From Actinocorallia sp. API 0066 (GTDB taxonomy: Bacteria; Actinomycetota; Actinomycetes; Streptosporangiales; Streptosporangiaceae), in assembly GCF_020991275.1 (NCBI RefSeq), contig NZ_JAJLQY010000001.1:806001-870000 (forward strand): DNA of 64,000 nt, written 5' to 3'. A program made the translations under genes and the position numbers. This document shows, one piece after another, positions 3,114-22,168 of the stretch (position 1 is the first letter of the stretch; each line of letters starts with the position of its first letter). The notes beneath the pieces are model-generated. The model saw only the letters and a list, made by a program, of their open reading frames with translations. It searched no databases and was not told the origin of the DNA.

Positions 3114-3560
3114 ATGGGTAAGTGCAATCCATGTGCGAAGGGCTGCGAACCCATGGTGGGATCGAGCACGAACGGCGGCGGAGGCGGTACCCAAGGGCGT
3201 CGGCAGAAGCGGGCTCCTGGGGGTCGGACGCGGGCGTTTCTGGTGCGGGTGACCGACGCAGAGCACCAGGCGTTGGTGGAGCGGGCTGGGCGGGTCGGGC
3301 TGAGCGTGCCGCGGCTGATGGTGGAAGCCTCGCTCGCCGATGATGTTCGGACGGTCAGTGAGCGGCGTGGCCTGGTGGTGGAGTTCTCGGGGGCCAAGCA
3401 GCTTGCCGCGGCTATCGGGAACAACCTCAACCAGTTGGCCAGGGCGGCCAATGCGACTGGAGTGATCCCGGAAGAGCTGGCGGTGACTCTGGTGGCCACC
3501 CGCCGGGTGCTCTCGCGCCTGGAGACGGCGGTCGAGGCGATGGGCGGGCGGGGCCGGTGA
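3114..3560 (+). CDS. mobC: MobC-like relaxosome accessory protein
   Basis: The 148-residue protein has a disordered Gly/Arg-rich N-terminus, then a ribbon-helix-helix-like segment (TRAFLVRVTDAEHQALVERA, about residues 39-58, and the following SVPRLMVEASL), then the AIGNNLNQLARAANATG motif near residues 101-117 typical of MobC proteins. MobC proteins bind oriT DNA and help the relaxase open it. Its stop overlaps the relaxase start in a GTGA (3557-3560), so the two are translationally coupled. An ATG at 3153 is an alternative start that removes an unconserved N-terminus. The gene looks intact although the relaxase behind it does not. Confidence 0.75.
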   Translation: MGKCNPCAKGCEPMVGSSTNGGGGGTQGRRQKRAPGGRTRAFLVRVTDAEHQALVERAGRVGLSVPRLMVEASLADDVRTVSERRGLVVEFSGAKQLAAAIGNNLNQLARAANATGVIPEELAVTLVATRRVLSRLETAVEAMGGRGR

Positions 3561-5037
3561 ATAACTTCATCTCACCTAGGCGGGGCAAGAGCACGATCGG
3601 CCTGGTGCGTTACCTGTTCGGGCCTGGTCGGGCGAACGAGCACGCTGGGCAGCGGGTGATCGCTGCGTCGATGGTCCTGGCCATGCCGGATGGGGGCGCG
3701 GCTGGACTACCGGGAGGACAGGAAGCAGGTCACCGAACTGGGTCGGCGCTGGACGGGCATCGCGTAGCGATGGGCATTGAGGTGCCGGACGGGCATGTGT
3801 GGCACTGCTCGATGTCTCTGCCGCCGGAGGACTCCACGCCCCGGCGGAAGCTCACGGACGGACAGTGGGCCGAGAGCGTCCGGGAAGCCGTCAGGAGGCT
3901 GGGCTTCGATGATGGGAAGCAGTCGCCGTATCGGTGGCTGGCGGTGCATCACGGGAAGTCGGTGAACGGGAACGAGCACGTTCACCTGGCGGTGAACCTG
4001 GTACGAGAGGACGGGAGTGTCGCGAGTATCTGGAACGATCGGCGCAAGCTCAGCCGGCTGTGCGCGGAGTTCGAGCAGCTGCACGGATTGCGTGTCGTCG
4101 AGGGGCGCGGCGGCGCGGGGGCGCCGGGGCTTTCGCGGGCCGAGCTTGAGCGGGCCGAGCGTCATCCGTGGCGGGAGCCTGATCGGGTGCTGTTGGCCAG
4201 GATCGTGCGGGCCGCGGCGACTGCCGCTGAAGGCGAAGGCGAGTTCGTCGCGTTCCTACACAGTAGAGGGGTACTGGTTCGGCCGCGGTACGGGCCGGGC
4301 GGCAGAGACGAGGTGGTCGGCTACTCGGTGGCGCTGGCTTCCCGGGCGGCCGGGGAGCCAGTGTGGTTCGGGGGCGGGAAGCTCGATCGCGGTTTGACCT
4401 TGCCCAGGCTGCGGGAGCACTGGCGGGAAAGACCTGTGGAGCGTGGGCAAGCACTCGCCTACTGGGGGCAATCTGTCGAGCCTCGTGGTTCTGTCCCTGC
4501 TGTCCCCGGTGTCCCCGCGACTTACGAAAAGGGGTCTGGGCTGGGGCGGCAAGGATTCTGGAGGAGGTCCGGGTTCAACTCCTGGCTGTCCCCGCCGATG
4601 ACCATGAGGCGTGGGCGGGGGTCGCGCGCGGAGTGTCGGGGATGCTGTCGATGTGGTCTGTGTCCGTCGAGGGCGCGCAGCCCGGTCCGCTGGCGGGGGT
4701 GGCCGATGCGCTCGCCAGAGCTTCCCGCACACGCTACGACGAACGGCCTCCATGTCCTCCCCATTGCGTGCGGGGGTTGAGGAAGGTGGCCAAGGTCGTC
4801 TCGACCTCTACCCGCCAGACATACGGTAACTGGGCAGAGATCGAGCTCCTTAGGAAGATCCTCCGCCTGATTCAGGTCATCGAAGACTGCAATCGCTCCC
4901 AGAGGCGGGCCATGGCGGCGATCGAGAGCGCCAACGCGTCAGTCGAAAGGCTCCGCTCCTTCACCGAGCAGGCGAGCCTCGGAGCGACCTACTCCAGGCC
5001 CACGATGGGACGGGCCGCGGGTTTCGGAATCGGATAG
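3557..5037 (+). pseudogene. MobA/MobL-type relaxase, frameshifted
   Basis: The N-terminal part is a relaxase: VRYLFGPGRANEH holds the likely nicking tyrosine (near residue 19), GHVWHCSMSL follows, and the metal-binding HUH motif is in GNEHVHLAVNLV. Family-like sequence continues through EVVGYSVAL and LTLPRLREHW. The first frame then runs into junk to a stop at 4780, while the +2 frame carries the expected C-terminus (ILEEVRVQLLAVPADD, and PGPLAGVADALARAS), ending at 5037. A frameshift therefore lies between about 4450 and 4545. A second, compensating pair seems to flank 3690-3755, where the neighbouring frame reads GARLDYREDRKQVTELGR. Either the gene has decayed or the assembly has indels at G runs. 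It would start conjugative transfer of the island. Confidence 0.75.
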
Positions 5038-5379: not shown

Positions 5380-5904
5380 TCAGGCGGTGAGTCCTTGCCG
5401 GGGGTCGCGGCCGTGCGAGGGGCGAATCACGCGTTGACTGCCGCTGGCAGAGCCTGGACGGACATTGCGTTGAGTCGCCATGCCGCCCACACGACCTTGC
5501 CGATGCCGGTGGCGTACCAGCCGACGTGATCGGCCTCGGCCAGCCTCATCGTCTGCCGTGGCGGAGCGGGGAACGGGCGGCGCGGCGGCGGTGTCGCTGA
5601 CTTCGACGATCAGGTGGGTGGCGGTTCGTCGCAGACGGACGGCGAACATTGCCGGCGTCTCGTCATGGAGGGCGGCGTAGCCGTTCGGGGCCTGGTCAGG
5701 GCCAGTGGCTCGGACTGCGTTGGTCGCGTACTCGGAGACCGCGAGGGTGACCTGATCGACCAGATGGCTCAGGCCCCACTGGGGCAGCTGCGCCTGCACC
5801 AGGCGGCGAGACAGGCGCACCGACTGCGGGAGCGCCACGAGTTGCAGTTTGTCGAGATCGAGTGTCTCCCCGGCCAGGTCGGGCCGGAAGTTGTTCGGGG
5901 ACAT
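5380..5904 (-). CDS. HATPase_c-type anti-sigma-like ATP-binding protein, probable frameshift near its end
   Basis: The protein resembles the short RsbW-like kinase-fold ATPases common in actinomycetes. VTLAVSEYATNAVRA (about residues 52-66) is the N-box helix, and LIVEVSDTAAAPP (about 98-110) is the G1-type loop. After DDEAGRG near residue 124 this frame turns arginine-rich, while the next frame reads HVGWYATGIGKVVWAAW, the expected last strand, and stops at 5427. A one-base indel near 5545-5555 is likely. Such proteins bind sigma or anti-anti-sigma factors and are often paired with small regulators. The ATG start at 5904 fits the family. It may be nonfunctional. Confidence 0.6.
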   Translation of the reverse strand: MSPNNFRPDLAGETLDLDKLQLVALPQSVRLSRRLVQAQLPQWGLSHLVDQVTLAVSEYATNAVRATGPDQAPNGYAALHDETPAMFAVRLRRTATHLIVEVSDTAAAPPVPRSATADDEAGRGRSRRLVRHRHRQGRVGGMATQRNVRPGSASGSQRVIRPSHGRDPRQGLTA

Positions 5905-8203: not shown

Positions 8204-9465
8204 CTAGGACAGCAGGAGAACGGCATCCCATGAGGTGGGAACGGTTGGGGAGGGGATCTTGCCGTGCTCGGCGAGGGCGAGCGCGACACCGGCCGCGCCG
8301 GTCAGCAGGCCGGGGTCATTGGTCGAGGATCCGGCGTGCTGGTGCTGGAAGGCGAAGGCATGGCGCGGATCGAAAGCGGCCTGCGTGGCGGCTGCCGCTA
8401 TGTCATGGGCGGTGCTGCCGCTGGTCGCGGTGCTCTGAAGGACGCCGGAGTAGCCGTGGCAGAGGGTCGAGCCGTGCGTGTCCCATCTGCCGCCGGGGCG
8501 GTTGGCCAAAGCGGCCAAGGAGGAGTCGGCGACCGTGAGGAAGCGACGATCCTGGAGCGCTTGGGCGGCGAGGTGGAGGGCGCGGCTGATGCCGGGGGAG
8601 CCGTAGCACCAGGCGTCGCGTCGCCCAGGTGCGATTGCGGGCTGTTCGTCGTCGAGTTCGTCGCCGGTGATGTGGGGTGGCCAGGTGTGAAGATCGGGGT
8701 TCTGCCAGGTGAGGAGCCATTCAGCGCAGAAGCTGATCGCCGATGTCTGGTTGGGGACGGTCCACCCGGCCGACGCTGCGGCGGACAGGAAGGCGAGGGG
8801 TCCGGCGATGCCGTGGGCCATTCCGGTCTCCGCGCGCCCGGAAGTCGCTGGATGCGCGGTGGAGGCGTGACCGTCAGAGGGGAGCCACCAGCCGGGCCGG
8901 GTGCTGCCGCCAGGTGTTCCGATCATGGTGGTGAGGACGGTCAGGGCCGCGATGAGTCCTTCTTCGGCGTCGGTGTGGCCACTCGCCAGGGCTGCCAAGA
9001 GGATTCGCCCGGTCCCGGACAGGCCGGTGATGGCGTCGTACAAGCCCACGTTGCGGTGACGGCTCCGTCGCGGTGGAGCCGCTCGTGGTAGTCGGTGGCG
9101 TGTGCGGTGGCCTGGGCGGATAGCCAGCGGACGGTCTGCCGGACGGCGCGTCGCTGAGGTTCGGGGTCGGGGAGGTAGCGCTCGCCGAGGATCAGGGAGG
9201 CGGCCAGGCCGCCGGGGGCGGCGAACACGCCGGGGTGGGGAAGTGAACCGTGTGGGGAATGGGTTGCGGCGGCTGTCCAGTGGGCGTGGGCGGCCGTGGC
9301 GAAGACTCGGTCGGTGGCGGCGAGACGCGCGTGCAGCAGCGCCGTGCCGGCGAGGCTCTGGAGACTGGCGCCGGGCCGGGAGGGAACGGCGGTGAGGACT
9401 CGTTCGGGGTCGAGGAGCCGTTCGGCGGCGGTGATCGCCTGCTGGGCGCTGATCGACGGGGTCAT
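8204..9465 (-). pseudogene. lanC: Lanthipeptide cyclase LanC, split by one frameshift
   Basis: Two overlapping frames together make one LanC of about 420 residues, the normal size. The 5' frame (9465 down to about 9050) carries the N-terminal helices, with HPGVFAAPGGLAASLILGER typical of the family. It then goes out of frame after HRDGAVTAT. The 3' frame resumes with VGLYDAITGLSGTGR and holds ETGMAHGIAGPLAFL, WCYGSPGISRALH, and LCHGYSGVLQ; the Cys of WCYG and the Cys-His of LCHG are the zinc ligands. A single missing base near 9050 would explain the break. LanC forms the lanthionine rings by adding Cys to dehydrated Ser/Thr. The start lies 1 base after the lanB stop. It is a true pseudogene or an assembly error. 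Confidence 0.8.
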
Positions 9466-9466
9466 G

Positions 9467-12409
9467 TCACCGGGTTGAGGTCGGTGCCGGGCGGAGGTAG
9501 AGGAGGTCGGCTGCGAGCGCCCGTACGAGCGGTTCCGCGCCGGTCGCTCCGATGATTCGGTTGACGTGCATGTGGATCAGGGAGGATGCGCAGGATCGGG
9601 CGCGCGGTGGGGGCAAGACGTCCCGGTAAGTCGACAGTGCGGTCTCGCGCTGCACCCATTCGGAACGGGTGGCTTCGAGCGCTGGTTCGGCGAGGCCGCC
9701 TGAGGCTGCACGCGTTCGGGGGCGAAGGCCGGTCAGATGTCGGCGGGCGGCCCGGTCGACGTGGCGACCCTCCACCGTGGCGGGGTCGCCGTTCGAGAGA
9801 GCGCGGGAGATCGCCGCAGCCGACAGGGCCGCGATGACGATGCGGTCGCTGGCGTCCGGGGCCGCTGGGAGTGCTGCCAGGACTAGCCGGGAGCCCGCGG
9901 CGAAGACGGCTTCGGCGGCGGCAATGGACTCCGCGCTGCCGCCGTACCGCTCGGTCTCCTGCTCGTATGGCTCGACGGAGAAGCCGCTGGCCAGCCGATC
10001 CCCGATGAGGCGTGTGACGAGGTTCGAGAACGCGGGCAGGATCTCGCCGCAGAGGATCGCGGGGTCGCCGTGGAAGCGCACTCGGAGGTGCGGACCGGCT
10101 TGGTCGGTGTAGCGCAGCCAGAACCATTGCTGGGTCGGCAGTTCGTCTGCGAGGGCGCTGATACGCGCCAGGACCTCGTCCTGGCAGGTTCCGGGAGTTC
10201 GGATCGTCAGAGACAGCCAGTCGCTTCCCGGCAGATGAAGGTCCTCGCCGATCCTGCGGACAGCACCGGGACCACTTGTGTGGGGAGGGGCAGGTGGATG
10301 GGCTCTGGCCAGAGGGACCACGAGTTCCAGCAGATGCCGTCCGGACGGTCCGGCCACGACGTCCTGGACGGCGTCGGGGCCGCCAGGCTGCTCGGTGACG
10401 GCAGGGACGCCACGGCTGACGTAGCGGCGCAGGAGTTCTAGGTCATCGGGTCGCCGTAGGTCGAGCGGCAGCGCCCGGTCGTGCTCGTGGATCACGATGA
10501 CGTCGGGGGGAGTAGGGACGGTCTCCTTCCGCCAACGAGCCACGGCGACGTCCCAGCCGACGGTGTCGCGGGTAGCGCCGGTCAGCGAAGGAGGCAGGAC
10601 CCACCTGGCAGGGGAGAGGATTGTTGAGCGGTGCCGGACACGTGGTTGGAACGGTGTGTCGGCGAGCGGCCCCCAGCTCCACGTCCGCAGCGGGCGGCTG
10701 CCGTGGTTGGACAGCAGCCGCAGCAGTTGGGCGGCTGGAGGCAGCAGCCGGGAGGCCAGCCGCGAATACAGCATCGGAATGACCGGCCGTCCCAGATGCT
10801 GCGACCACAGCCACAGTCGAGGCCCGTCCGACATGAGCATCAGATCGGCCACGTCCAGGTCGCCGGGACGGGCGGGTACACCGAGGGCGATCCGGTGGGA
10901 GGCGAAGCCGGTGGGCGCCGCCAGGGTGGAGCCGTTGGGGGTGCGTGCCCGCACGACCAGCTCCGCAACCAGCGCGTCATCGGCGTGGTCGGGGTAAGCG
11001 AGACCGGGCACCAACGTTGAGAATCGGCCCGTGGACGATCCAGCGTCCTGCGTATTGGAGGCGGAGCAGACCGCCAGCCGGATACGTCCGGCCGCCGCGT
11101 CCTCCAGAGAGTCCGCGATGACCCTCACCTGGATCTCGGCGGTACGCGGAGGGACGGCGTCGCGGCTGCCCGCCGCGGTGGCCAGAGCCTCCACCGTCGC
11201 AGCGCCCAACTCGACTTCGACGCGTCCCGCGCCGGCGGCTTCAGCGATCAGAGTGCCTAGGACCGCGGTCGTCCTCGCGGACATGGCCGACGAGGGCTCG
11301 GGCTCCTCGAAACCGATTCCTGCCACGGGGTCGATCGTGTCCAGCAGCGGCACGAACCGGTGTGGGCCGTAGCGTGCCTTGAAGCGCCGGTGGTAGTCCG
11401 CGAGCGGATCCGGCCTCGGGTTGATCCGCCACAGCACCTCCGCGGCCTGCGCGGCCTCGGAGGCCAGGCGTCGCGGCAGCGCCAGGTCGCCGTCGACGGC
11501 CACATCGACGGAAAGCGTGGAACGGCCCCGCTTATGGGAATCGGTCGAAGGGCTGACGATCTGGTCGGCGAGGTCCCGCGCCTGCGACAGGAACTCCAGC
11601 CTTCCCGCTGCCCCCGGCCTGAGACGATCAGCGTCGGCCAGGCATACGCGGATCTTCTCCAGACGCGCCCGCAGGGCGTCGTTCACGGGGAGCCTGGCCA
11701 GGAGATGAGTCAGCGGATCATCACCGCCCTGCTCGGGAAGCAGATCGGTCACGAGGAACCCGCACCGCACCAGCTCCAGCACCATGGAGCGGACCGGTTG
11801 CTCGGGTGCCACAGGCCAGGCACGGGTCACGGCGGCGAGGAGGTCGCTCCACCGCGCCCCTTGTGCGCATTCCGACATGACGAGGGTGGCTGCGTCCGTC
11901 GCACGGACAGAGATCCGCCGGACGCCCAGGACTCCCGGCTCCGCGGGCTGCTCGTGCTCCCACCGATCGCCCCGCCGAACCGCCAGAGCATTGGTGGACA
12001 GCGTGAGCAGCGGCAGGACGTCAGGGTCGTCCAGGACGAGCGCCGCTACGTCGGCGAGCCAAGAAGGGTGGGGAACGGTCCGGGCACGGTGCGCGTCTCC
12101 GATCGACAGGCTGTCCGAGGCGCTTTCGGTGAACCGGGCGCAGCAGACACCCGCGAACACCCCGTGCGGCGTCGGGCGGCTCCGGGCCCGCAGGGTGTAG
12201 CTGCGCACCGTCGAAGCGGCACGGCCGTCCAGCAGCTGCCGGGGGCTGGAGGCGATCGAACCCGCCTGCCGTGAGGCCAGGAACATACCTTCACGAACCA
12301 GCGAATCGACATCGCCCGCCTTGCCGACAGATGGCCCGCGCAGAGGCAGCAGCGGGATCCGAGCCAACGCGGCGGCACCGGGGAACGGAACGAAGACACC
12401 ACGCCCCAT
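9467..12409 (-). CDS. lanB: Class I lanthipeptide dehydratase LanB, full length
   Basis: The 980-residue protein spans both LanB parts: the N-terminal glutamylation domain (RSYTLRARSRPTPHGVFAG near residues 68-86 is the classic tRNA-Glu-dependent motif) and the C-terminal elimination domain (WFWLRYTDQAGPHLRVRFHG, then SGFSVEPYEQETERYGG). LanB glutamylates Ser/Thr of the precursor with Glu-tRNA and eliminates glutamate to give dehydro residues. The length is that of full-size enzymes, and I see no break. The ATG at 12409 has GAGGAG just upstream. It is the third gene of the minus-strand operon methyltransferase-precursor-lanB-lanC. Confidence 0.92.
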   Translation of the reverse strand: MGRGVFVPFPGAAALARIPLLPLRGPSVGKAGDVDSLVREGMFLASRQAGSIASSPRQLLDGRAASTVRSYTLRARSRPTPHGVFAGVCCARFTESASDSLSIGDAHRARTVPHPSWLADVAALVLDDPDVLPLLTLSTNALAVRRGDRWEHEQPAEPGVLGVRRISVRATDAATLVMSECAQGARWSDLLAAVTRAWPVAPEQPVRSMVLELVRCGFLVTDLLPEQGGDDPLTHLLARLPVNDALRARLEKIRVCLADADRLRPGAAGRLEFLSQARDLADQIVSPSTDSHKRGRSTLSVDVAVDGDLALPRRLASEAAQAAEVLWRINPRPDPLADYHRRFKARYGPHRFVPLLDTIDPVAGIGFEEPEPSSAMSARTTAVLGTLIAEAAGAGRVEVELGAATVEALATAAGSRDAVPPRTAEIQVRVIADSLEDAAAGRIRLAVCSASNTQDAGSSTGRFSTLVPGLAYPDHADDALVAELVVRARTPNGSTLAAPTGFASHRIALGVPARPGDLDVADLMLMSDGPRLWLWSQHLGRPVIPMLYSRLASRLLPPAAQLLRLLSNHGSRPLRTWSWGPLADTPFQPRVRHRSTILSPARWVLPPSLTGATRDTVGWDVAVARWRKETVPTPPDVIVIHEHDRALPLDLRRPDDLELLRRYVSRGVPAVTEQPGGPDAVQDVVAGPSGRHLLELVVPLARAHPPAPPHTSGPGAVRRIGEDLHLPGSDWLSLTIRTPGTCQDEVLARISALADELPTQQWFWLRYTDQAGPHLRVRFHGDPAILCGEILPAFSNLVTRLIGDRLASGFSVEPYEQETERYGGSAESIAAAEAVFAAGSRLVLAALPAAPDASDRIVIAALSAAAISRALSNGDPATVEGRHVDRAARRHLTGLRPRTRAASGGLAEPALEATRSEWVQRETALSTYRDVLPPPRARSCASSLIHMHVNRIIGATGAEPLVRALAADLLYLRPAPTSTR

Positions 12410-12445
12410 ACGGAACTCCTCATCACGAGCTCACCCCGATTTGGG

Positions 12446-12492
12446 CCTCGGGGCCGCCGCCGGGCACACGGCCCGGCGGCGTTTCCCCGAGG
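12446..12492 (-). terminator. Long hairpin between precursor gene and lanB, probable attenuator
   Basis: An outer 8-base-pair stem (CCTCGGGG 12446-12453 with CCCCGAGG 12485-12492) encloses an inner perfect 10-base-pair stem (12456-12465 with 12471-12480). No T run follows on the minus strand. Many lantibiotic operons have a leaky terminator here so that precursor mRNA exceeds enzyme mRNA; that function is inferred from position. Confidence 0.6.
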
Positions 12493-12609
12493 TTCAGCAG
12501 CGAGACCAGCCGCCGCTGGAGTAGTTCTCCGAGGACATGTCCGACGGCGATACGCCGACTGCCCCGGTCCGGGTGCCGCGGCCGAAACGCTCGACCACGG
12601 CGGTATCCG

Positions 12610-12747
12610 TTAGGAGACGCAGCCCGAGCAGGTCTGCGTGCAGGTGTCGCTGGTGCAGTCCTCGGAGTCCAGGGCCTGGGGCAGTTCGTGCAGGGGCCCG
12701 GTCTGAGTGTCCAGCGCGAACAGGTTCACGATCGCATCAGAGTCCAT
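12610..12747 (-). CDS. lanA: Class I (FxLD-type) lanthipeptide precursor peptide, 45 aa
   Basis: Translating the minus strand from the ATG at 12745-12747 gives 45 residues ending in TAA (12610-12612). The leader is MDSDAIVNLFALDTQTGPLH (residues 1-20) followed by ELPQALDSED. It holds FALD at residues 10-13, the FxLD/FNLD box that binds LanB. The core is CTSDTCTQTCSGCVS (31-45), with four Cys and seven Ser/Thr, and no other small frame here looks like this. It lies 67 bases after the methyltransferase and 200 bases before lanB on the same strand. Asp34 is the only Asp in the core and is the likely target of the methyltransferase. The ribosome site is weak. The leader cleavage site is unknown and no dedicated protease gene is present. 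Confidence 0.88.
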   Translation of the reverse strand: MDSDAIVNLFALDTQTGPLHELPQALDSEDCTSDTCTQTCSGCVS

Positions 12748-12814
12748 GGCTCGGACGATACGCGTGAACCTGCACTCAGTATCGGGATGCTCGAAAAGCT
12801 GACCAGGTTCGGAC

Positions 12815-14068
12815 TCAGGTCTGGTCGGAGATCACGAAGACCGTGCTCTCCCGCTTCTCGGCCGTGATCATCGCGGCGAGATCGCTCGGCGCGGCTGCCG
12901 CCGGATGCACCTCGATCCGGAGGGCCGCGCGGTGTGGCTTCGCCTGCTCCCATTCCTGGAGCCGGGAGACCAGCTCGTCCGCCAGTTGCGTGGCCCGGGG
13001 TCCGTAGGCGCAGGCGCCCAGCTCGACCGTCTCGGCGCCACCGGATGTCTCAGTGTCGGCTGCCGGACGGCGGATCAAGTAGGCGAAGCTGTCGTGGGTG
13101 TACAGGCCCATGCTGCCCCAGGAGTAGAGCGGCTTGATCAGGCCCTCCTCGACGGCGTGAGAGGAGACGAGAATCCGGCAGACCTGCGCGGACGCCCCGG
13201 CCAGCCAGTAGTCCAGATGGTCGAACGGCACCCATGGCACGACCACTCCGGACCACGCCTGTGCCGGTGTGGTGTCCACCGCTGCTCCGAGCGCCTGGAG
13301 GTCGACGGGCAGGCCGTCGTCGGCGCGGATCCACATGCCCCGCTTCGGCGGGAGCTCGGCGTTGAACTCCCCGATGGCCTCGGGCCCGCGCATCGGCATG
13401 AACCCGCGCTCCTCGATGGAGACGCTCCGCCACACCTCGCCGTCCAGCTCCAGCGCCACCGACCGGCTGATCCCCTTGACCCGCAGCGGCACGACCAGCC
13501 TTCCGCCCGGTGCCAGCTGTTCCCGCCAGGCCGTCGGGACGTCCCAGGCTCCCGCCGTCACGATGATCCGGTCGTAAGGCGCGCCTTCGGGGTACCCGAG
13601 GTGGCCATCGCCCTGGACAACGCGCACGTCCGGGTAGCCGGCCGCCGCGAGGTGCTCCCGTGCCTCCGCGACGATCTCCGCACCGATGTCGACTGCGGTC
13701 ACCTGCCCCTCCGAGCCAGCCAGCTCCGCCAGGCAGGCGGCGTTGTAGCCGGTGCCCGCGCCGATCTCCAGCACGCGGTGGCCGGGCTGGACGTCCAGTT
13801 GCTCCAGCTGTGCCGCGACGACACCCGGTCCCGACGCCGAACTGATCGCGACGCGACGCTCATCCCGGTGGGTGACCACCGAATCCTGCGCGTAGGCGCG
13901 CTCCAGAGTCGCATCGGGCACGAAGAGGTGTCGGGGCACCGTCCGCATCGCCGCCTCTACCGAGGCCGAGCGGATTCCGCCCCAGCCCAGGCCGGTCAGC
14001 TTCTCCACCATCGCCGTACGCAGCACCTCGGCTTCCGCGGAACCAGCCGCGGTAACAGAAACTCCCAT
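12815..14068 (-). CDS. FxLD-system protein-L-isoaspartate-type O-methyltransferase
   Basis: The 417-residue protein is a PCMT-like methyltransferase of the kind found with FxLD lanthipeptides. VPRHLFVPDATLERAYAQDS is the family entry motif, SSASGPGVVAAQLEQL follows, then VLEIGAGTGYNAACLAEL as the SAM-binding motif I and QVTAVDIGAEIVAEA. A C-terminal extension of about 200 residues, absent from repair PCMTs, is typical of the peptide-modifying type. Such enzymes methylate a core Asp, which cyclises to succinimide and reopens to isoaspartate. I start at the ATG at 14068 because upstream sequence is unconserved. It is the first gene of the lanthipeptide operon. Confidence 0.85.
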   Translation of the reverse strand: MGVSVTAAGSAEAEVLRTAMVEKLTGLGWGGIRSASVEAAMRTVPRHLFVPDATLERAYAQDSVVTHRDERRVAISSASGPGVVAAQLEQLDVQPGHRVLEIGAGTGYNAACLAELAGSEGQVTAVDIGAEIVAEAREHLAAAGYPDVRVVQGDGHLGYPEGAPYDRIIVTAGAWDVPTAWREQLAPGGRLVVPLRVKGISRSVALELDGEVWRSVSIEERGFMPMRGPEAIGEFNAELPPKRGMWIRADDGLPVDLQALGAAVDTTPAQAWSGVVVPWVPFDHLDYWLAGASAQVCRILVSSHAVEEGLIKPLYSWGSMGLYTHDSFAYLIRRPAADTETSGGAETVELGACAYGPRATQLADELVSRLQEWEQAKPHRAALRIEVHPAAAAPSDLAAMITAEKRESTVFVISDQT

Positions 14069-14206
14069 GCGGCCAGCGTATGGTTCGGCGTCCTGGCGGG
14101 CAGGCACATTCGCCCCTGACGAAGAAACCGCATCCGGGCTCCGCGGGCGCTCAGCCCTACGATGTGATGCTAAAGACGCAGCTGAGCGGTTGGAGCCCTG
14201 ACGGTC

Positions 14207-14329
14207 ATGGCGAACATCGGATTTCGGGATATCGCAGGTGACCTGCGTAGGTCCATCGAGCTCGGTGAGATCGGCCAGGGCCTCGCGCTTCCCTCGGAGT
14301 CCGATCTCGTGGAGAAGCACGGGACTTCG
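14207..14329 (+). pseudogene. 5' fragment of a GntR-family regulator
   Basis: The first 41 codons (MANIGFRDIAGDLRRSIELG, then EIGQGLALPSESDLVEKHGT) are the winged-helix start of a GntR regulator. After this point the frame becomes meaningless, and the DUF3987 coding sequence begins in another frame. The fragment marks a deletion or recombination junction near 14320-14330. Confidence 0.7.
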
Positions 14330-15726
14330 TGTTCCGTCTGGCAGAGCAGACCCAGACGCCGATCGACCTCGCTGGATGCCTCGCCTTGGCGGTGCTGGCC
14401 GTCGCAGCGAGCGGAAAGGTCTGGCTCCAGGCCCCTGGCTGGCGGGAACCGCTCTGCCTCTACGTCGTGATCGCGCTACCGCCTGGCAACCGCAAGTCCG
14501 AGGTGTACGCGGTCATGACCGAGCCCATCCGTGCCTACGAGGACGAGCTTCGGGAACTCGCTTCTCCGAGCATCGTCAAGGCGGCCATGGAGCGCAGGAT
14601 GGCCGACGTCGATGCCGAGAAAGCTGAGCGTGACACTCTCGGGGCGGCGGGAGAAGAACGCCAAGTCCTCAAAGAGGAGGCGATTCAGAAGGCGCTGGAC
14701 GCGGAAGCCATCCGCGTGCCGGCGGAGCCCCGCCTGTATTCGGGGAACGTCACCGTCGAAGCCCTGTCAGCGATCATGGCGGCGCAGGGTGGCCGTTACG
14801 CGGTCCTTTCCCCCGAGGGAGAGCTGTTCGACATCGCCGCAGGGCAGTACTCCGGGGGACGGCGCCCGAACTTCGGAATCCTGAAGCACGGTCATGCGGG
14901 GGAGACCGTCCGCGTTGATCGGCTCAGCCGTGAGGGCGAGGACATCCGGAACGCCACGCTCACCTTGGGCATCTGCACGCAGCCGTCGGTCCTGGAGAGC
15001 CTCGCCGACACTCCGGAGTTCCGCGGTCAAGGCTTGCTCGGCCGCATCCTCTACTCGATCCCGCAGTCCCTTCTGGGACGCCGAGACCATCGCAACGCGG
15101 AGAAGGTTCCGGCGCACATCGTTGCTGAGTACACCAGCAACCTCACGGCGCTGCTTAGGACCCTGCACGAACTGCCGGACCATAGCGACCTCACACTCTC
15201 GTCGATGGCGACCAATGCCGCCGAGGATCTGCTCGACGAGCACGAGGCGCGTCTCCACCCGGAAACCGGCGATCTGGCCCACATGGCGGACTGGGCGGCG
15301 AAGTCGGTCGGCGCGACGCTGCGCATTGCGGGCCTGCTGCACCTGGCCGAGCATGTCGGGCGGGGCGCGATTCTCCCGTCGTTGAGTGATCCGATCACGG
15401 TCGAGTCGATCGCCAACGCCCGGGAGACCGGCGACTACTTCACCCACCACGCCCAGGCTGCGTACGACGCCATGGGCGCCGACCCCACCGTAGGTGACGC
15501 CCGCGCCGTCCTCGCCTGGATCAAGACGACTGGCACCGACCGCTTCACCGCACGCGATGTCTAGCGCGGCAACCAGCACCGCTTCAAAAAGGTCACCCGC
15601 GCAGAACCGGCCCTCAACCTGCTGGAAGCCCATGGATGGATCCGCCGCCTCCCCGGCGCCCGCGCGGGACGGGGTCGGCCGGCGGCTCCCTCCTTCGAGG
15701 TCCACCCCACGGCACTCGGCTCATGA
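14330..15726 (+). pseudogene. DUF3987 replication-type protein, 5' truncated and with an in-frame stop
   Basis: The frame from about 14330 reads as a DUF3987 protein: PIDLAGCLALAVLAVAASGK at the left, VVIALPPGNRKSEVYAVMTE as the degenerate P-loop-like region, LYSGNVTVEALSAIMAAQGG, and GRILYSIPQSLLGRR. The N-terminal part usual in element-borne versions (often a prim-pol domain) is missing at the GntR junction. A TAG at 15562-15564 interrupts the frame, but family-like sequence continues in the same frame (HRFKKVTRAEPALNLLEAHG and a winged-helix end) to TGA at 15724-15726. Such proteins sit beside xis/int in actinobacterial integrative elements and are thought to serve replication. This copy is probably dead. 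Confidence 0.75.
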
Positions 15727-15901: not shown

Positions 15902-16132
15902 TTGGCGAACCCGACGAAAACGACGCGCAGGCGCAAGACGACCGCCTCGGACACCGAGCGGCTGGACCAGCTCTCCCTCAATGAGGTATGCGAGGTGCTG
16001 AGCATCAGCCCGTCCACCTTCTACGACTGGCGCGCCAAGAACCTCGCACCCGCCTGCTTCAAGCTCCCGAACGGACAGCTCCGCTTCTACAGGGCCGAGT
16101 TCCTGCGGTGGCTCGACGGGCTGGAGGGCTGA
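15902..16132 (+). CDS. xis: Excisionase/AlpA-like helix-turn-helix protein
   Basis: The 76-residue protein has a basic N-terminal tail and a MerR-like winged helix (LNEVCEVLSISPSTFYDWRA, then LPNGQLRFYRAEFLRWLDGL). These small proteins bend DNA and direct the integrase toward excision. It starts at a TTG with AGACAGG upstream, and its TGA overlaps the integrase ATG (TGATG at 16130-16134), the usual coupled xis-int arrangement. It appears intact although int is not. Confidence 0.8.
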   Translation: MANPTKTTRRRKTTASDTERLDQLSLNEVCEVLSISPSTFYDWRAKNLAPACFKLPNGQLRFYRAEFLRWLDGLEG

Positions 16133-17631
16133 TGGAAGGCATCAGCTACGACGTCCGCGTCTACGAGATCGAGACTCGCAAGAACGCCCAAGGCAAGACC
16201 ACGTCTTACCGGGTCGTCTGGAAGGTGGAACGCCAGCGCTTCCACGAGTCGTTCAAGACCAAGGCCCAGGCCGACAGCTTCCGTTCCGAGCTGAAGACCG
16301 CCGCCAACAAGGCCGAACCGTTCGACACCGCCACCGGCCGTCCGGTCTCGTGGGCGAAGACCACGGTCACGATGAGCTGGTAAGACCTGGCCGTCGCCTA
16401 CTCCGACCGAAAGTGGAAGGACGCGTCGGCCAAGCACCGGGCCGACATCGCCCGGGTCATGATGCTCACCACCATGGCGATGCTCTCCAGCGAGAAGGGC
16501 AAGCCCGACGACGCCCTGCTCCGCCGCGCCTTGACCCGGTACGCCTTCAACACCAAGCAGAGGGCCGAAGCTCCCCGCGACGTGATCGCCGCGCTGGAGT
16601 GGGCAGCGAAGAACACGGAGAACGTCGACACGCTGGCCGACCTCGACGTCGTCCACACCGTCCTGGACGAGATCACCACCCGCCGCCGGGACAACAAGCG
16701 CATGGCCGCGGTGACGACCAAGAAGTACCGGGGCATTCTCCACAACGCCCTTGAGTTCGCCGTGATCAAGAAGGCGCTGGCTGCCAATCCCCTCACCGGC
16801 CTGACGTGGATCTCGATCAGGACGTCCACCGAGGTCGACCGGCGCTCGGTCGTCAACCCCGCCCAGGGCCGAGCCTTCCTTGCGGCCGTACGCGAGCATG
16901 CACCGAGCGGGCCGAGACTCGTGGCCCTCTACGGCGCGATGCTCTACTGAGGCCTACGGCCCGAGGAAGCCGTCGAGATCACTGAGGACACCCTCCTGCT
17001 CCAGCCCCGCATCTGGAACCCCGAGACCGAGCAGCTTGAGGACCCGCCTGAAGAGGAGGACTGGGGCGAACGCTGGGTCGGAACGGTCGCGCCGGAAGTC
17101 GCCCCCGACTGGACCGACGACGGCGCGAAGCGCGACAGACGCGAAATGCCCAAGCACCGAGCAGAAGGAGAAACCCGAGGCCCGATCCCGGTTCCACCGG
17201 TCCAGAGCAGGCTCTTCCGCGAGCACCTGATCCACCACGGCACCGGCAAGGACGGCCGCCTCTTCCAGGGTGTCCGAGCCGACGTCGTCCCCGGCGACAC
17301 CATCCAGAGGGTTTTCGGGCGAGCCCGCGCCAAGGTCCTGACCCCGAAGGAACTCGACTCACCCCTGGCCAAGCGCCCCTACGACCTACGGCACACCTAC
17401 GTCTCGACCCTCCTGAACGCCGGTGTGTCCCCCAAACAGGTCGCTGAGTGGGCCGGCAACAGCGTCGGGGTTCTCTTGAAGACCTACGCCAAGTGCCTGG
17501 TCGGCGACGCCCACGCCTCCTGCCACCGCATCGCAGAGGCACTCCGCCGAGAGCTGCCCGGGGGAAACCCTATCCGACGGCCTCTGAACTGCTGTTGGGC
17601 AGTTGGGGGGCCATTCTTCTGTTGGCAATAG
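16132..17631 (+). pseudogene. int: Tyrosine site-specific integrase with two in-frame stop codons
   Basis: A single frame from the ATG at 16132 to the stop at 17629-17631 encodes a whole tyrosine recombinase of about 500 codons, interrupted by TAA at 16381-16383 and TGA at 16948-16950. The N-terminal arm (VYEIETRKNAQGKTTSYRVV), the SAM-like core domain (TKKYRGILHNALEFAVIKKA) and the catalytic domain are all present. Catalytic positions seen are Arg in GLRPEEAV just after the TGA, the RHTY box in YDLRHTYVSTLLNAGV, and the tyrosine in LLKTYAKCL. Both stops fall where relatives have ordinary residues, probably Tyr and Trp. It would have integrated the island at the tRNA-Gln site. Confidence 0.88.
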
Positions 17632-17675: not shown

Positions 17676-18674
17676 TTAACCCATTATTGGCGCAAGCCCT
17701 AAGCTTGAGGAAATATGCGGTGGGCTTTTGGGGGCTAGGTGATTCCAGGCGTCGGAGAGAGCGTCGAGCAGCATCGCGCGGTCAAGGTTTGCCGGATAGA
17801 GTTCGAGGATCACCTGGGCGAGTCGCATGGCGGTGGCAACATTCTCTCCGGGGGGAAGGCGGAGTCGCTCCATGGCGTCGCCAGCCGAGATGGGCAGCAC
17901 TTTGACCGTTTCGCTGAGGAGGACGCGATCTATATGGTGCCCTACCATCTCGGCCACGGGACCCATAGCATTCATGATGGATAGGCTTCGATCGAGCCGC
18001 CTCTGGTGCCGCTCCTTGATCGCCCGGAGATCAAGATCGCTGAGGCCAAGGTCGCCAGCCGACAACTGCAGCAGTCCCAGGTAGTCCAGGACGGCACCCG
18101 TCCTACTGAGCCTGCCCTTCCATAGGTCGCTGATTTCGTCACAGTTGCTGTGTTGTTCTATTCCGCGAGATATGGCAACGGCTGCCGATAGATGCGTTTT
18201 GGCTGACGTTAGCAGGGCGATTCGACAACGTATCCATTGCTCGTCGCTGTCTGGGATGCGTGATTCGCAGGCGACCTTGTACCACCGGTAGCACTCGTCG
18301 AGTGTGCGGCGGTCCCTGACATCGGAGGGGTCGAGGTTATGGACTGACCGGGTGCGAAGCCTGCCGAGAATATGGGTGAAATCTTTAGCCTGGCGCTCGT
18401 CTTGGCCGAACAGATTGGCCTGACCGAAGAGGAAGTCTAGGCTTGTTCGCCAAGCCTCAGTGAACCAGGAACTGAGCCATGTCGTTGTTGCCACGAACAT
18501 GTACTCGGGGGTGCCGTCTTGAAAGTCTGGCCGAGGGGCCGTTACCTTGCTGCCGATAGGCAAAGAGGTTAGTGCATCACACAGCTGTTCTAGTTTTTGA
18601 CCCGCGAGCCCAAGGTCGCGCATTAGAGAGTCGATCTGGTCCCTATAGCTGGCCTCGGTGTCGTAAAGGCTCAC
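17676..18674 (-). CDS. Unrecognised partner of the SIR2-like/STAND protein
   Basis: The 332-residue protein matches no family I know. It is soluble and looks mostly helical, with no signal or membrane segment; a charged middle (DLDLRAIKERHQRRLDRSL) and an EWIRC-like cysteine-containing helix near residue 165 can be seen. It starts at a GTG overlapping the TGA of the upstream 1165-aa gene (GTGA, 18671-18674), so the two are translationally coupled and probably act together. Base composition equals that of its partner and is lower in GC than the chromosome. A role as regulator, inhibitor or second effector subunit is inference. Confidence 0.7.
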   Translation of the reverse strand: MSLYDTEASYRDQIDSLMRDLGLAGQKLEQLCDALTSLPIGSKVTAPRPDFQDGTPEYMFVATTTWLSSWFTEAWRTSLDFLFGQANLFGQDERQAKDFTHILGRLRTRSVHNLDPSDVRDRRTLDECYRWYKVACESRIPDSDEQWIRCRIALLTSAKTHLSAAVAISRGIEQHSNCDEISDLWKGRLSRTGAVLDYLGLLQLSAGDLGLSDLDLRAIKERHQRRLDRSLSIMNAMGPVAEMVGHHIDRVLLSETVKVLPISAGDAMERLRLPPGENVATAMRLAQVILELYPANLDRAMLLDALSDAWNHLAPKSPPHISSSLGLAPIMG

Positions 18675-21600
18675 GACCTGTCCGCCCTCTCGGCGACCTG
18701 AGGCTGTGAAATGATCTTCGGGCCGCGGCGGTCTCCGGGTTCGCGAGCTGGTTCGAGGATGGGGCCACGCAGGTTGAAAGCAAGATGGGCCTCGGGCAAA
18801 GCCAGCCCCTTGCGTAGTTCCTCATCGCTGAAGTCCATGCTCTGGAAGGGGACTGTTCGTGACAACTCGCTAACCCAGCACTGACCTTTGCGGTGGTCTT
18901 GGTCCATATGTTGGACAGTCGGGCGAAACTTCCGCGGTCGGCCAGAGGTATCGCTTGCGAGGTAGACGTTGACGATCCTGCGTCGTGATGTATGGGATTC
19001 ACGCTCGGCGTTCCTGAAGGAGTTGAACGCTGCGGAGAACTCGCCGAGATGGAACTGGGCCAGGGCCCGCATGAACTCCACACGCAGCGCCGACAGATCA
19101 TCACCCGATGAAAGGAGGTTAGCCAGTTCCAGGCATTCCAGCCAGTTCTGTTTCGTCAGTGGGAGAGTGAGTCGCTCTTCCGCCATGAATCGGTAGCCAG
19201 TCTTGTCGAGCCAGAATAGGTCGACCAGTAGGCGCAGGCACTTCTTATCCTCGTATGCTGCAGGATGTGTCTGAAGGAATTCTAGTGCCTTGCGGACCCC
19301 CATCTGATGGGGTTCGCGGCGGATGAGGCCGCTGACCCGTAGTGCGTACAGATAGGCGGCGAGCGGCTCATCGATGGCTGCCAGTCGTTGAAGTCTCTCC
19401 TCAGCAATTTGGGCCTCGTCGGCGAGCGCCGCAATGTCGGCGAAGCGGGAGTTGTACTTGGCCTCCTGTCTGGGGCTGAGGTCGGCTACATCGATCAGGA
19501 GCAGCCGTGAGACACATTCTGCGATGAGATCTGCCGAATCAGCCTCGGGAAGGGCTTTCTGCTTTGTGAGCTCGATGGTCACCCAGCACAGGACATCGAC
19601 CGGGTAGTACTCATCCTGTGCGCCCCGCATCGCCCTGGCAGTGATCTGCACGACCCGGTCCAGCATCTCCATGATGCTCTCGGTCGGGGCTGAGGATGGG
19701 AGCGTCCCGTCAGGGCCACTGTGCAATAGTTCGTACAGTTGAGAACCGACGACGCTGGCCTGCTCTACTAGCAGACTGGAATGGATGGCTAGGCCAGTGC
19801 GGGCGCCCTGCCGCGCCACGTGTGTGTGTTCGAGGGCATCCTCCACGACTTCAACGGCCCTTAGTAGCACCTCGCTCCGCTGCTGTGAGTTCGCGGACTG
19901 CGTACGCTGTGCGAACTTGACCCACTCTCGGTAGAGATTCGTCTCCAGCAGTGCGAGCCGGGGGCTTGGGACACCCACGCGACTGTTTGCGTCAGCGATG
20001 GCGTCCGCTAGGAGGAGGTAGTACTCGCTGTACGTTTGGTCTTCATCGCCTCTGGGGCCGATTCGGGCGAGAAGGTCAACGGCGAACTGGACCTCTTCGC
20101 CGCCGAAGGTTGTGGAATCCGGACGAACAAAAGACAGCACGTCGGCCAAAGTCTCGAACTCTGCCCGGTTCGTGATGCGTTCCGCCTCGACTAGGACCCT
20201 GGCCTCGAGTTCGTTACGAGCTGACAGAGTGTAGTTCCCGTTATGGTCTTCCCCCCACTCGATGAGATCGATCTTGTTGAGGAGGTGGGGAAGGTTCTGC
20301 ACACCGTCACGCCCAGCGACGCGCAGCGCCAAGTTGAGTGGTATCGGCTGGCCGTGCCGAGAAGCGATGAGAACTGTATGTACCAACTTTTCGTAGGGGC
20401 CCCGGTAGAATTCGGCGGCATCGTCCTGGTCAGCTGCTTCGCGTAGAGCCAGCTCCAGCTTGTCGATGAGGCCGGCTGCATGCAACGCGCTGGCCATTGC
20501 GGTTGGTGGTCGGTAGTCGGCCTCGTCTCTCGCCGATTGAGTCAAGGTGGTTTCGGCGTGCCTGAGCTCGAGCACCAGACCCTTACTGACGGCACCTCGG
20601 CTATCGGGCAGCAGCCGGTAGAGAGCGCTGAGGAAGGTGTTGTCCCGGAGGATGCGCGTTCGGTCTCGGGCTTGAATGAAGATGCCGAGGCCTTCGAGAT
20701 GCCGCTCGAAGCGGTCGAGCTCGTTTGAGGTCAGCCGTGCCGGCGCGGAGATCTCATTTTTCGGGCGGTCGTCCTTCCTGTTCTTCTTGCCGCTCTCCTT
20801 GCGGAAGTAGCATGTTCCGACTAGGACTGTCCGGCGTCCACGCGAGTCGAGGTACCGTTTAAGGCGGGAGTATTCATCCGGGTCGAGCATGCCGTCCCAG
20901 ACCAACAAGGTTGCTGGTATAGAGGCACCCTCAACCCAAGCGCAGAAAGCGTCGATCACCTCGTAAGATGGTCGGCTCGCTCGTCGCGGGATGTGCATGA
21001 CTGCGTACTGTTTCTTCCCGGCGACCGCATAGGCCAGGGACGCCAGCGCGACCGTCTTGCCGGTACCGGTCTGCCCAATCAGCAAGAATGGCGGGTCTCC
21101 TTGGCTTCGGCCCTCCAGCGCCCGATCGACAAGCGTGCGAAGCGAGTTCTCGTAGTTACGCTGAAAAACAAGGCTGCTGCCGATCGCGGGCCAATACGAC
21201 GACGGTTCACTGGTGCCGAGAAATTCGCGAAAGATGAGGTACCGACGTTCGTCGGACTGAACAGGTGGGGCAGAGAGGAGGTCGATCTCCATGATCTGCC
21301 CGAATGCCGACACTGAGTTCCACAGGGATGTGGGGATATCGTGTAGGTCCAGTCCGCACTGGATCTGGTGACGACCAGAGGAGAAGCGCTGAGGTGCGGT
21401 GAGCCTACCCCGAGCCTTGGCCTCCTCGATAAATGTGGCGAGGTCCTCCTCATGCGGAACGAGAACCTTCTCGTCGATCGCTGCGGCAATGAACTCGTCC
21501 TCGAGCTCCACCTCGGTGGCAGAGAATAGGTGGGCCTGCGCTCGACCGAGTCCGTGCAGGATTCCGTAAAGATCCTCGGAGTCGAACCAGTCATCCAGGC

Positions 21601-22168
21601 TCCATGCCTCGATGACTACGACGCCGCGTGGAGTGATGAGTTCGTCGGGTAGCCTCTTGGCCAGCGCACGTGCCTCGGCGCGGCGGGCGCCTAGCTCACG
21701 GCGGTTGGTGGGTGGCTGGCTCCCGGGCGGCTGGTCAGCGTCGCCGAACAGCAGCAGCGACTGAACTCTCACAGAGCTGCGCGGCGCGATCGGTCGGAAC
21801 TCGGAAGAGCCGACAGGCTGGACCTCCCTCCATTCGCTGCGAAGGGCGCGGATGAGGAGGGAGTCAACGGCTGTGGTGAGGACACCGTTCCACGGGAGCT
21901 CGGATACGACCTGGAGCCATTCCGGGATCGCCAGACGGGAAGAGGCATCCTTAAGCGCTTGCAGCGCGGCGGGTTTCCGCTCGGACGGGATGCGTTGAAG
22001 GAGCCGGTAGACGTCGTCTGCATCGGATGTGATGCTGACTGCCCGTGCGACCGGACCTGCGAGGGGGTCTTTGCCGGTCTCCAGCAAGAGGTGTTTCTGG
22101 CCGAGAAGCAGGTACGCGGGGCCCTGCTCGAGTCTGGTGATCAGGTCCTCAGGATCGGCGTTCATCAC
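18671..22168 (-). CDS. Large NTPase with degenerate SIR2-like N-domain and STAND-like core, candidate defence protein
   Basis: The 1165-residue protein has three regions. Residues 1-230 follow the SIR2 fold: LLLGQKHL (21-28) at the GAG loop, WNGVLTTAVDSLL (93-105) where SIR2 enzymes have TTNYD, LLLFGDADQP near 138-147 where they have a KLHG loop, and EAWSLDDWF near 187-195. The catalytic Asn and His are not at their usual places, so NAD cleavage is doubtful. A P-loop GQTGTGKT lies at 365-372, with TLLVWDGMLD (420-429) as Walker B-like and a STAND-type helical region behind it. The rest is TPR-like helices (ALAQFHLGEFSAAFNSFRNA) and a short beta tail. SIR2-STAND-TPR proteins are known anti-phage sensors (Avs-like). 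I cannot place this one in a named family. Confidence 0.75.
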   Translation of the reverse strand: MMNADPEDLITRLEQGPAYLLLGQKHLLLETGKDPLAGPVARAVSITSDADDVYRLLQRIPSERKPAALQALKDASSRLAIPEWLQVVSELPWNGVLTTAVDSLLIRALRSEWREVQPVGSSEFRPIAPRSSVRVQSLLLFGDADQPPGSQPPTNRRELGARRAEARALAKRLPDELITPRGVVVIEAWSLDDWFDSEDLYGILHGLGRAQAHLFSATEVELEDEFIAAAIDEKVLVPHEEDLATFIEEAKARGRLTAPQRFSSGRHQIQCGLDLHDIPTSLWNSVSAFGQIMEIDLLSAPPVQSDERRYLIFREFLGTSEPSSYWPAIGSSLVFQRNYENSLRTLVDRALEGRSQGDPPFLLIGQTGTGKTVALASLAYAVAGKKQYAVMHIPRRASRPSYEVIDAFCAWVEGASIPATLLVWDGMLDPDEYSRLKRYLDSRGRRTVLVGTCYFRKESGKKNRKDDRPKNEISAPARLTSNELDRFERHLEGLGIFIQARDRTRILRDNTFLSALYRLLPDSRGAVSKGLVLELRHAETTLTQSARDEADYRPPTAMASALHAAGLIDKLELALREAADQDDAAEFYRGPYEKLVHTVLIASRHGQPIPLNLALRVAGRDGVQNLPHLLNKIDLIEWGEDHNGNYTLSARNELEARVLVEAERITNRAEFETLADVLSFVRPDSTTFGGEEVQFAVDLLARIGPRGDEDQTYSEYYLLLADAIADANSRVGVPSPRLALLETNLYREWVKFAQRTQSANSQQRSEVLLRAVEVVEDALEHTHVARQGARTGLAIHSSLLVEQASVVGSQLYELLHSGPDGTLPSSAPTESIMEMLDRVVQITARAMRGAQDEYYPVDVLCWVTIELTKQKALPEADSADLIAECVSRLLLIDVADLSPRQEAKYNSRFADIAALADEAQIAEERLQRLAAIDEPLAAYLYALRVSGLIRREPHQMGVRKALEFLQTHPAAYEDKKCLRLLVDLFWLDKTGYRFMAEERLTLPLTKQNWLECLELANLLSSGDDLSALRVEFMRALAQFHLGEFSAAFNSFRNAERESHTSRRRIVNVYLASDTSGRPRKFRPTVQHMDQDHRKGQCWVSELSRTVPFQSMDFSDEELRKGLALPEAHLAFNLRGPILEPAREPGDRRGPKIISQPQVAERADRS

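Follow-up and report, generated by a model that had tools for sequence, protein, structure and literature searches.

A 45-codon frame on the minus strand of Actinocorallia sp. API 0066, lying between genes for a methyltransferase and a LanB-type enzyme, raises the question of whether it encodes a lanthipeptide precursor and, if so, whether the cluster around it could still turn that peptide into a modified product. The frame is considered here within a window of 64,000 nucleotides, the whole stretch of DNA that was analyzed (contig NZ_JAJLQY010000001.1, positions 806,001 to 870,000), and the genomes and loci used for comparison are designated by G and L numbers, respectively. The sequence-only reading of the window had described a FALD leader followed by a core with four Cys and seven Ser/Thr, and the translation, MDSDAIVNLFALDTQTGPLHELPQALDSEDCTSDTCTQTCSGCVS, agrees with this description. 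The core region, CTSDTCTQTCSGCVS, holds four Cys, seven Ser/Thr, and one Asp (D34), and this Ser/Thr/Cys-rich core together with an FxLD-like leader is the make-up expected of the precursor class. The frame had also been called too short for usual gene callers, which is mistaken, as 45 codons lie above the usual gene-finder limit; the lower gene limit of Prodigal is 90 bases. Its G+C content at the three codon positions is 0.57, 0.48, and 0.89, and the third-position value is similar to those of LanB (0.80) and the methyltransferase (0.83).

Table 1. Features of the putative lanthipeptide cluster and its surroundings (window coordinates).
Feature	Coordinates	Strand	Remarks
LanA, putative FxLD-type class I lanthipeptide precursor	12610..12747	minus	45 aa; FALD at residues 10-13; proposed core from C31; candidate aspartate D34
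LanSA, PIMT/PCMT-like methyltransferase, FxLD system	12815..14068	minus	TIGR04364, PF01135
34-aa frame after precursor	12497-12598	minus	ends SSENYSSGGWSRC
Strong inverted repeat, possible attenuator	12446..12492	minus	8- and 11-bp stems; located between the genes for precursor and LanB; no T-run
LanB, full-length dehydratase	9467..12409	minus	980 aa; PF04738 and PF14028
LanC N-terminal piece	8941..9465	minus	in another frame than the rest; no family match of its own
LanC C-terminal piece	8204..9049	minus	PF05147; WCYG and CHG motifs
Recombinase-like frame	16132-17631	plus	stops TAA 16381-16383 and TGA 16948-16950; follows a small HTH gene (15902-16132) as well as a DUF3987 gene

Enzyme Genes Adjoining the Precursor

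The methyltransferase gene ends 67 bases before the precursor ATG, and its product scores 433 bits against TIGR04364 ("methyltransferase, FxLD system"; cut-off 320), which places the precursor directly beside an FxLD-system enzyme. The start codon of this gene was assigned from the sequence at 14066-14068, while the open frame extends to 14320. On the other side, 200 bases separate the precursor stop from the ATG of LanB, in which the N-terminal (glutamylation) and C-terminal (elimination) domains lie within a single open frame, so that the dehydratase is full-length, as expected of a class I cluster. The family matches of both neighbors agree with the identification of the frame as an FxLD-type class I precursor flanked by an FxLD-system methyltransferase and LanB. 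Further downstream of LanC are genes for a DUF5753 regulator and a DUF397 protein. Neither a transporter nor a leader protease was found among the family-identified genes from about 6.7 to 14.1 kb, a region whose small frames were partly covered, and a sigma-70 scan of 12380-14400 did not find a promoter.

The spacer between precursor and LanB is longer than its counterparts in L080, L081, L082, L084, and L085, and it contains a hairpin with a z value of -4.71 (0/200 shuffles as stable) that is absent from the terminator-like listing. Read-through attenuators occur between other lanA and lanB genes, and this hairpin could be one of them, although the shorter spacers of the relatives make that no more than a guess. 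The same spacer carries the 34-aa frame listed in Table 1, which was considered as a further peptide and rejected. Its best outside matches in 338 genomes (E 0.005 and 0.007) lie within open frames of about 500 residues in G008 and G078, and the best foreign match among the compared loci (E 0.008) is in L096; it is probably a chance frame.

Conservation of the Precursor with Its Enzymes

The 45-residue peptide was used as query against 341 genomes of the family, and matches at E ≤ 1 occur in 61 of them. At E < 0.01, relatives are present in 6 of the 340 other genomes, each with a LanB gene or an FxLD-type methyltransferase gene as neighbor. The closest are in G006 (71%), G180 (58%), and G334 (57%), followed by the more distant G124 and G126 (40% each) and G028 (38%, E 0.0066). 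A search for an orthologous precursor near LanB in relatives, proposed in the sequence-only reading, thus finds such precursors beside their cognate enzymes. In addition, the genome of the window itself encodes a relative at L093 (46%, E 0.028) beside another methyltransferase and LanB, on a stretch that ends at the contig end and in which LanC was not found.

The window methyltransferase matches proteins in 220 of the 341 genomes at E ≤ 1e-40 and has orthologs at 67-69% identity in four other genomes. The precursors of G006, G180, and G334 directly follow three of its four closest relatives. At the fourth (L083, on contig C42 of G028), LanC fragments stand immediately after the methyltransferase, and a search up to the contig end found no LanB and no precursor. 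In the methyltransferase tree, the window groups with L080-L083 (support 100/100), and a wider set of 23 rows (100/98) adds L084, L085, L093, and L095, the rest being loci whose precursors were not seen. A count of five label changes on this tree was set aside since the copies of L084 and L085 were unlabelled under other locus ids. The order methyltransferase-precursor-LanB-LanC is common to the window, L080, L084, and L085; LanB of the window is 58% identical to that of L080, and the precursors of these two loci share the identical stretch DSEDCTSDTCTQTC. At L095 (7324-9091), what follows the precursor is the first ~168 residues of LanB continuing straight into the last two thirds of a methyltransferase, an arrangement like that left by a deletion.

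Synonymous and non-synonymous differences per site, over 36 codons of the precursor, are 0.28/0.15 against L080 and 0.24/0.23 against L081. By these values, purifying selection is either weak or unproven for the peptide as a whole. What the sequences do demonstrate is the presence of the gene, its place in the order of the enzyme genes, its co-conservation with those genes, and, as discussed below, its agreement with the family pattern.

Proposed Maturation of the Peptide

Taken together, the frame is most probably the lanA of a class I FxLD-type cluster, whose peptide would be matured by LanB, LanC, and then the PIMT-like methyltransferase acting at D34. The chemical steps, the cleavage site, and the ring pattern are modelled on the family. 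First, LanB would bind the F-A-L-D leader and dehydrate Ser/Thr of the core. A LanC would then close thioether rings at C36, C40, C43, and perhaps C31. After cyclization, the methyltransferase would methylate D34, and the methyl ester would form an aspartimide, which could either stay or hydrolyze to isoaspartate (isoAsp) or Asp. These last steps would take place only if another LanC of the genome substitutes for the one of the cluster or if the frameshift described below is an assembly error.

The earlier claim that D34 is the only core Asp stands within CTSDTCTQTCSGCVS and depends on the cleavage site beyond it, as D30 immediately precedes C31. Likewise, the prediction of up to four rings was too strong. 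Since C31 has no Ser/Thr before it within the proposed core, three rings would be the more natural expectation; a fourth would call for leader cleavage at a site further upstream or for a ring that runs in the opposite direction.

The Broken LanC and Signs of Possible Decay

That LanC is broken had been implied in the sequence-only reading, and it is indeed split over two frames that meet near 9043. The C-terminal piece retains the WCYG and CHG motifs, which serve as zinc ligands. A LANC_like domain (PF05147) can be recognized, although the split gene is not the intact cyclase gene of a class I cluster. LanC lies in one open frame in L080, L084, and L085, and LanB or LanC is interrupted, truncated, or absent in L081, L082, L083, L093, and L095. 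The damage across relatives may point to frequent decay, or it may stem from draft assemblies and contig ends.

It is a serious possibility, if one that falls somewhat short of an even chance, that the frame is a true lanA in a decaying, non-producing cluster that has lost its LanC and is surrounded by a degenerate mobile element. Besides the split LanC, this is suggested by the two in-frame stops of the recombinase-like frame, by a GntR-like start at 14207 (identified by eye) that is cut short before the DUF3987 gene, and by the broken or missing LanB/LanC in L081, L082, L083, and L095. However, LanB and the methyltransferase are open and conserved, four stop-free LanC frames exist elsewhere in the genome (L096-L099), and the LanC frameshift could be a sequencing error. 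Decay of this kind is compatible with the identity of the gene as lanA and denies only its present function. On balance, the surroundings favor some decay, with draft errors and contig ends as the alternative in the relatives.

The recombinase-like frame resembles, by eye, a tyrosine recombinase; its two later pieces have no Pfam match. A few kb from LanC, the C-terminal part of a HATPase_c_2 gene (5380-5904, minus) seems to continue in another frame (5427-5549), perhaps a second frameshift. A MobA/VirD2-like relaxase (3557-4780, plus) is possibly cut or frameshifted as well. The window also holds a Thoeris anti-phage pair (42-1435, plus), consisting of a TIR-like ThsB (PADLOC, 237.6 bits) and then a ThsA with a Macro domain (315.9 bits), directly followed by a gene (1626-2408, plus) that combines DUF1883 and a TIR domain in one protein. 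On the other side of the cluster, a 1165-residue protein with a STAND NTPase domain (nSTAND_NTPase5; 18671-22168, minus) adjoins a 332-residue protein that has no Pfam or PADLOC match.

For the preferred reading as a lanA whose peptide is matured by the cluster enzymes, the state of LanC matters at the last step. The methyltransferase homolog OlvSA acts only on dehydrated and cyclized OlvA (PMC13001092), so that with LanC broken, modification of D34 is uncertain here unless another LanC of the genome helps. This leaves three readings: one of the other LanC enzymes stands in for that of the window, the frameshift reflects a mistake in the assembly, or the cluster is being lost. A broken LanC alongside at least four other LanC frames in one genome makes this locus a natural case in which to ask if LanC enzymes can work for foreign clusters.

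The Fate of D34

The sequence-only reading had predicted one isoaspartate, which is too definite, as isoAsp is one of three possible end states, Thr (T35) follows D34, and the homolog needs a cyclized substrate. Among 38 distinct candidate precursors gathered by pattern from 200 loci, 24 have Gly directly after the Asp, 8 have Asn, 5 have Thr, and 1 has Lys. The same scan of the reversed sequence gave 2 matches in 1,479,741 bases. The Thr group consists of the window (D34-T35), L080, L081, L082, and L099, the last from the same genome as the window.

In the lasso peptide lihuanodin, the aspartimide is water-stable, and a Thr following it directs its hydrolysis to Asp (PMC13001092). Isoaspartate is therefore not assured for the window peptide, and the end product might instead be a stable aspartimide or restored Asp, an outcome that we hold possible while leaning against it. 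The presence of Thr at the same position in L080, L081, and L082 is in line with such an outcome. However, hydrolysis in OlvA yields 70-80% isoAsp, a change to Thr in the pamtide NmaA raised the methylated species and lowered the aspartimide, and Thr, like Asn and Asp, has previously been observed after the modified Asp in lanthipeptides, all as described in PMC13001092. The effect of Thr in lihuanodin may also depend on the lasso fold. In any case, an aspartimide or Asp product would be a variant of the maturation proposed above in its final step.

It is also imaginable, and in our view unlikely, that in the window and L080-L082 the Thr after the Asp is itself dehydrated by LanB or becomes a ring member. 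The aspartimide would then form on or next to the nitrogen of a dehydrobutyrine or methyllanthionine, leaving a stable aspartimide or restored Asp. Were this true, it would be to lanthipeptides what the Thr-controlled aspartimide of lihuanodin is to lasso peptides. The small set of precursors with Thr after Asp offers a testbed for how PIMT-type modification ends in lanthipeptides.

Placement Within the FxLD Family

The window peptide has no match to TIGR04363 (cut-off 30 bits) and none up to E 10 to NF038155 (cut-off 20 bits). Against a profile of 16 standard precursors it reaches an E value of about 1 and is outscored by three chance frames of the window. In the same genome, seven methyltransferases exceed the TIGR04364 cut-off and four precursors exceed that of TIGR04363, and the window precursor is outside those four. 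Divergent FxLD precursors can thus evade the curated models even though their enzymes are recognized.

The core had been said not to resemble any known lanthipeptide, a view that does not hold, as it fits the family pattern T-x-D-[G/N/T]-C-x-x-[S/T]-C and intermediates exist. Most members of the window group follow the pattern D/N-C-T-[S/N/D]-[D/N]-[T/G]-C-T-x-[S/T]-C, with L093 and L082 deviating near the end; standard FxLD precursors have C-x-T-x-D-[G/N]-C-x-x-[S/T]-C. The window motif is T-S-D-T-C, and the Asp stands at the same place in 7 of 8 group members, being shifted by one in L095. A conserved core Asp in a T-x-D-G-C-like motif is the mark of a lanthimiditide (a PIMT-modified lanthipeptide), to which the window peptide would belong by its sequence. 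Two intermediates link the group to the family below the TIGR04363 cut-off of 30, namely L062 (26.1 bits, E 6.5e-6), whose EDCTSDNC is one residue off the EDCTSDTC of the window, and L077 (EDCTNDGC; 24.4 bits, E 2.1e-5). The L082 ortholog passes NF038155 (21.9 and 20.3 bits in two runs), L080 and L081 fall under its cut-off (16.3 and 16.1 bits, and 14.9 each in the other run), and the orthologs of G124, G126, and G028 had no listed match in this search. A profile-to-profile comparison of the 8 group precursors with 18 standard FxLD precursors gave a probability of 93.4% and an E value of 2.6e-7, a result that is partly circular since the pattern used to choose the 18 standards is one to which most of the 8 likewise conform. 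On this sequence evidence, the window precursor belongs to the known FxLD/FDLD-type class I lanthipeptides as a divergent member that lies beyond both curated precursor models.

A search for frames with F-x-L-D, then 15-60 residues, and at least four Cys within the last 20 found 1 in the window, 0 in 60 shuffles of it (3-base blocks; mean 0.0), and 11 in loci selected for clusters of this type (611,654 bases). That the precursor is a chance open reading frame, as its shortness, the missing family-model match, and the failure to see a ribosome-binding-site-like stretch upstream of its ATG might suggest, is highly improbable and was rejected given the relatives beside cognate enzymes in 6 genomes, the core stretch identical in L080, and the empty shuffles.

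Comparison With Known Systems

The window cluster shares with the FxLD family (TIGR04363/TIGR04364) the F-x-L-D leader, the T-x-D-x-C-x-x-[S/T]-C core, LanB, LanC, and the PIMT-type methyltransferase. It differs in that its first core Cys stands three residues before the Asp, compared with four in the family, and in that the leader past FxLD reads T-Q-T-G-P-L-H-E-L-P, where the family usually has V-x-V-x-E. The NCBIfam model NF038155 ("FDLD family class I lanthipeptide") includes the ortholog L082; the peptide of the window carries FALD and is outside it. The locus is otherwise ordinary, as a methyltransferase over the TIGR04364 cut-off is present in 25 of 60 related genomes, and its remaining points of interest are the broken LanC and the Thr that follows the Asp.

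A characterized parallel is OlvA/OlvSA from Streptomyces olivaceus (Acedo et al., 2019, as reviewed in PMC13001092). Both are class I systems in which, by prediction for the window, a PIMT homolog methylates an Asp that proceeds to aspartimide and isoAsp. In contrast, Thr follows the Asp in the window where Gly is typical of the family as reviewed there, and the window LanC is broken. A search of the literature for the core sequence strings returned only papers unrelated by title. The wider family has been documented for some time: TIGR04363 was among the antiSMASH profiles in 2014 (PMC3930743), and 1305 lanthipeptide clusters with such methyltransferases, most of their precursors carrying T-x-D-G-C, are reported in PMC10787088. 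The class I families I 1-4 of Walker et al. (2020; PMC7268733) likewise share with the window an origin in Actinobacteria, a conserved core Asp, and a PF01135 methyltransferase in the cluster. Precursors that combine a conserved Asp with a PIMT-type methyltransferase are already in print (PMC7268733, PMC10787088, PMC13001092), and it is among these that the window precursor would take its place.
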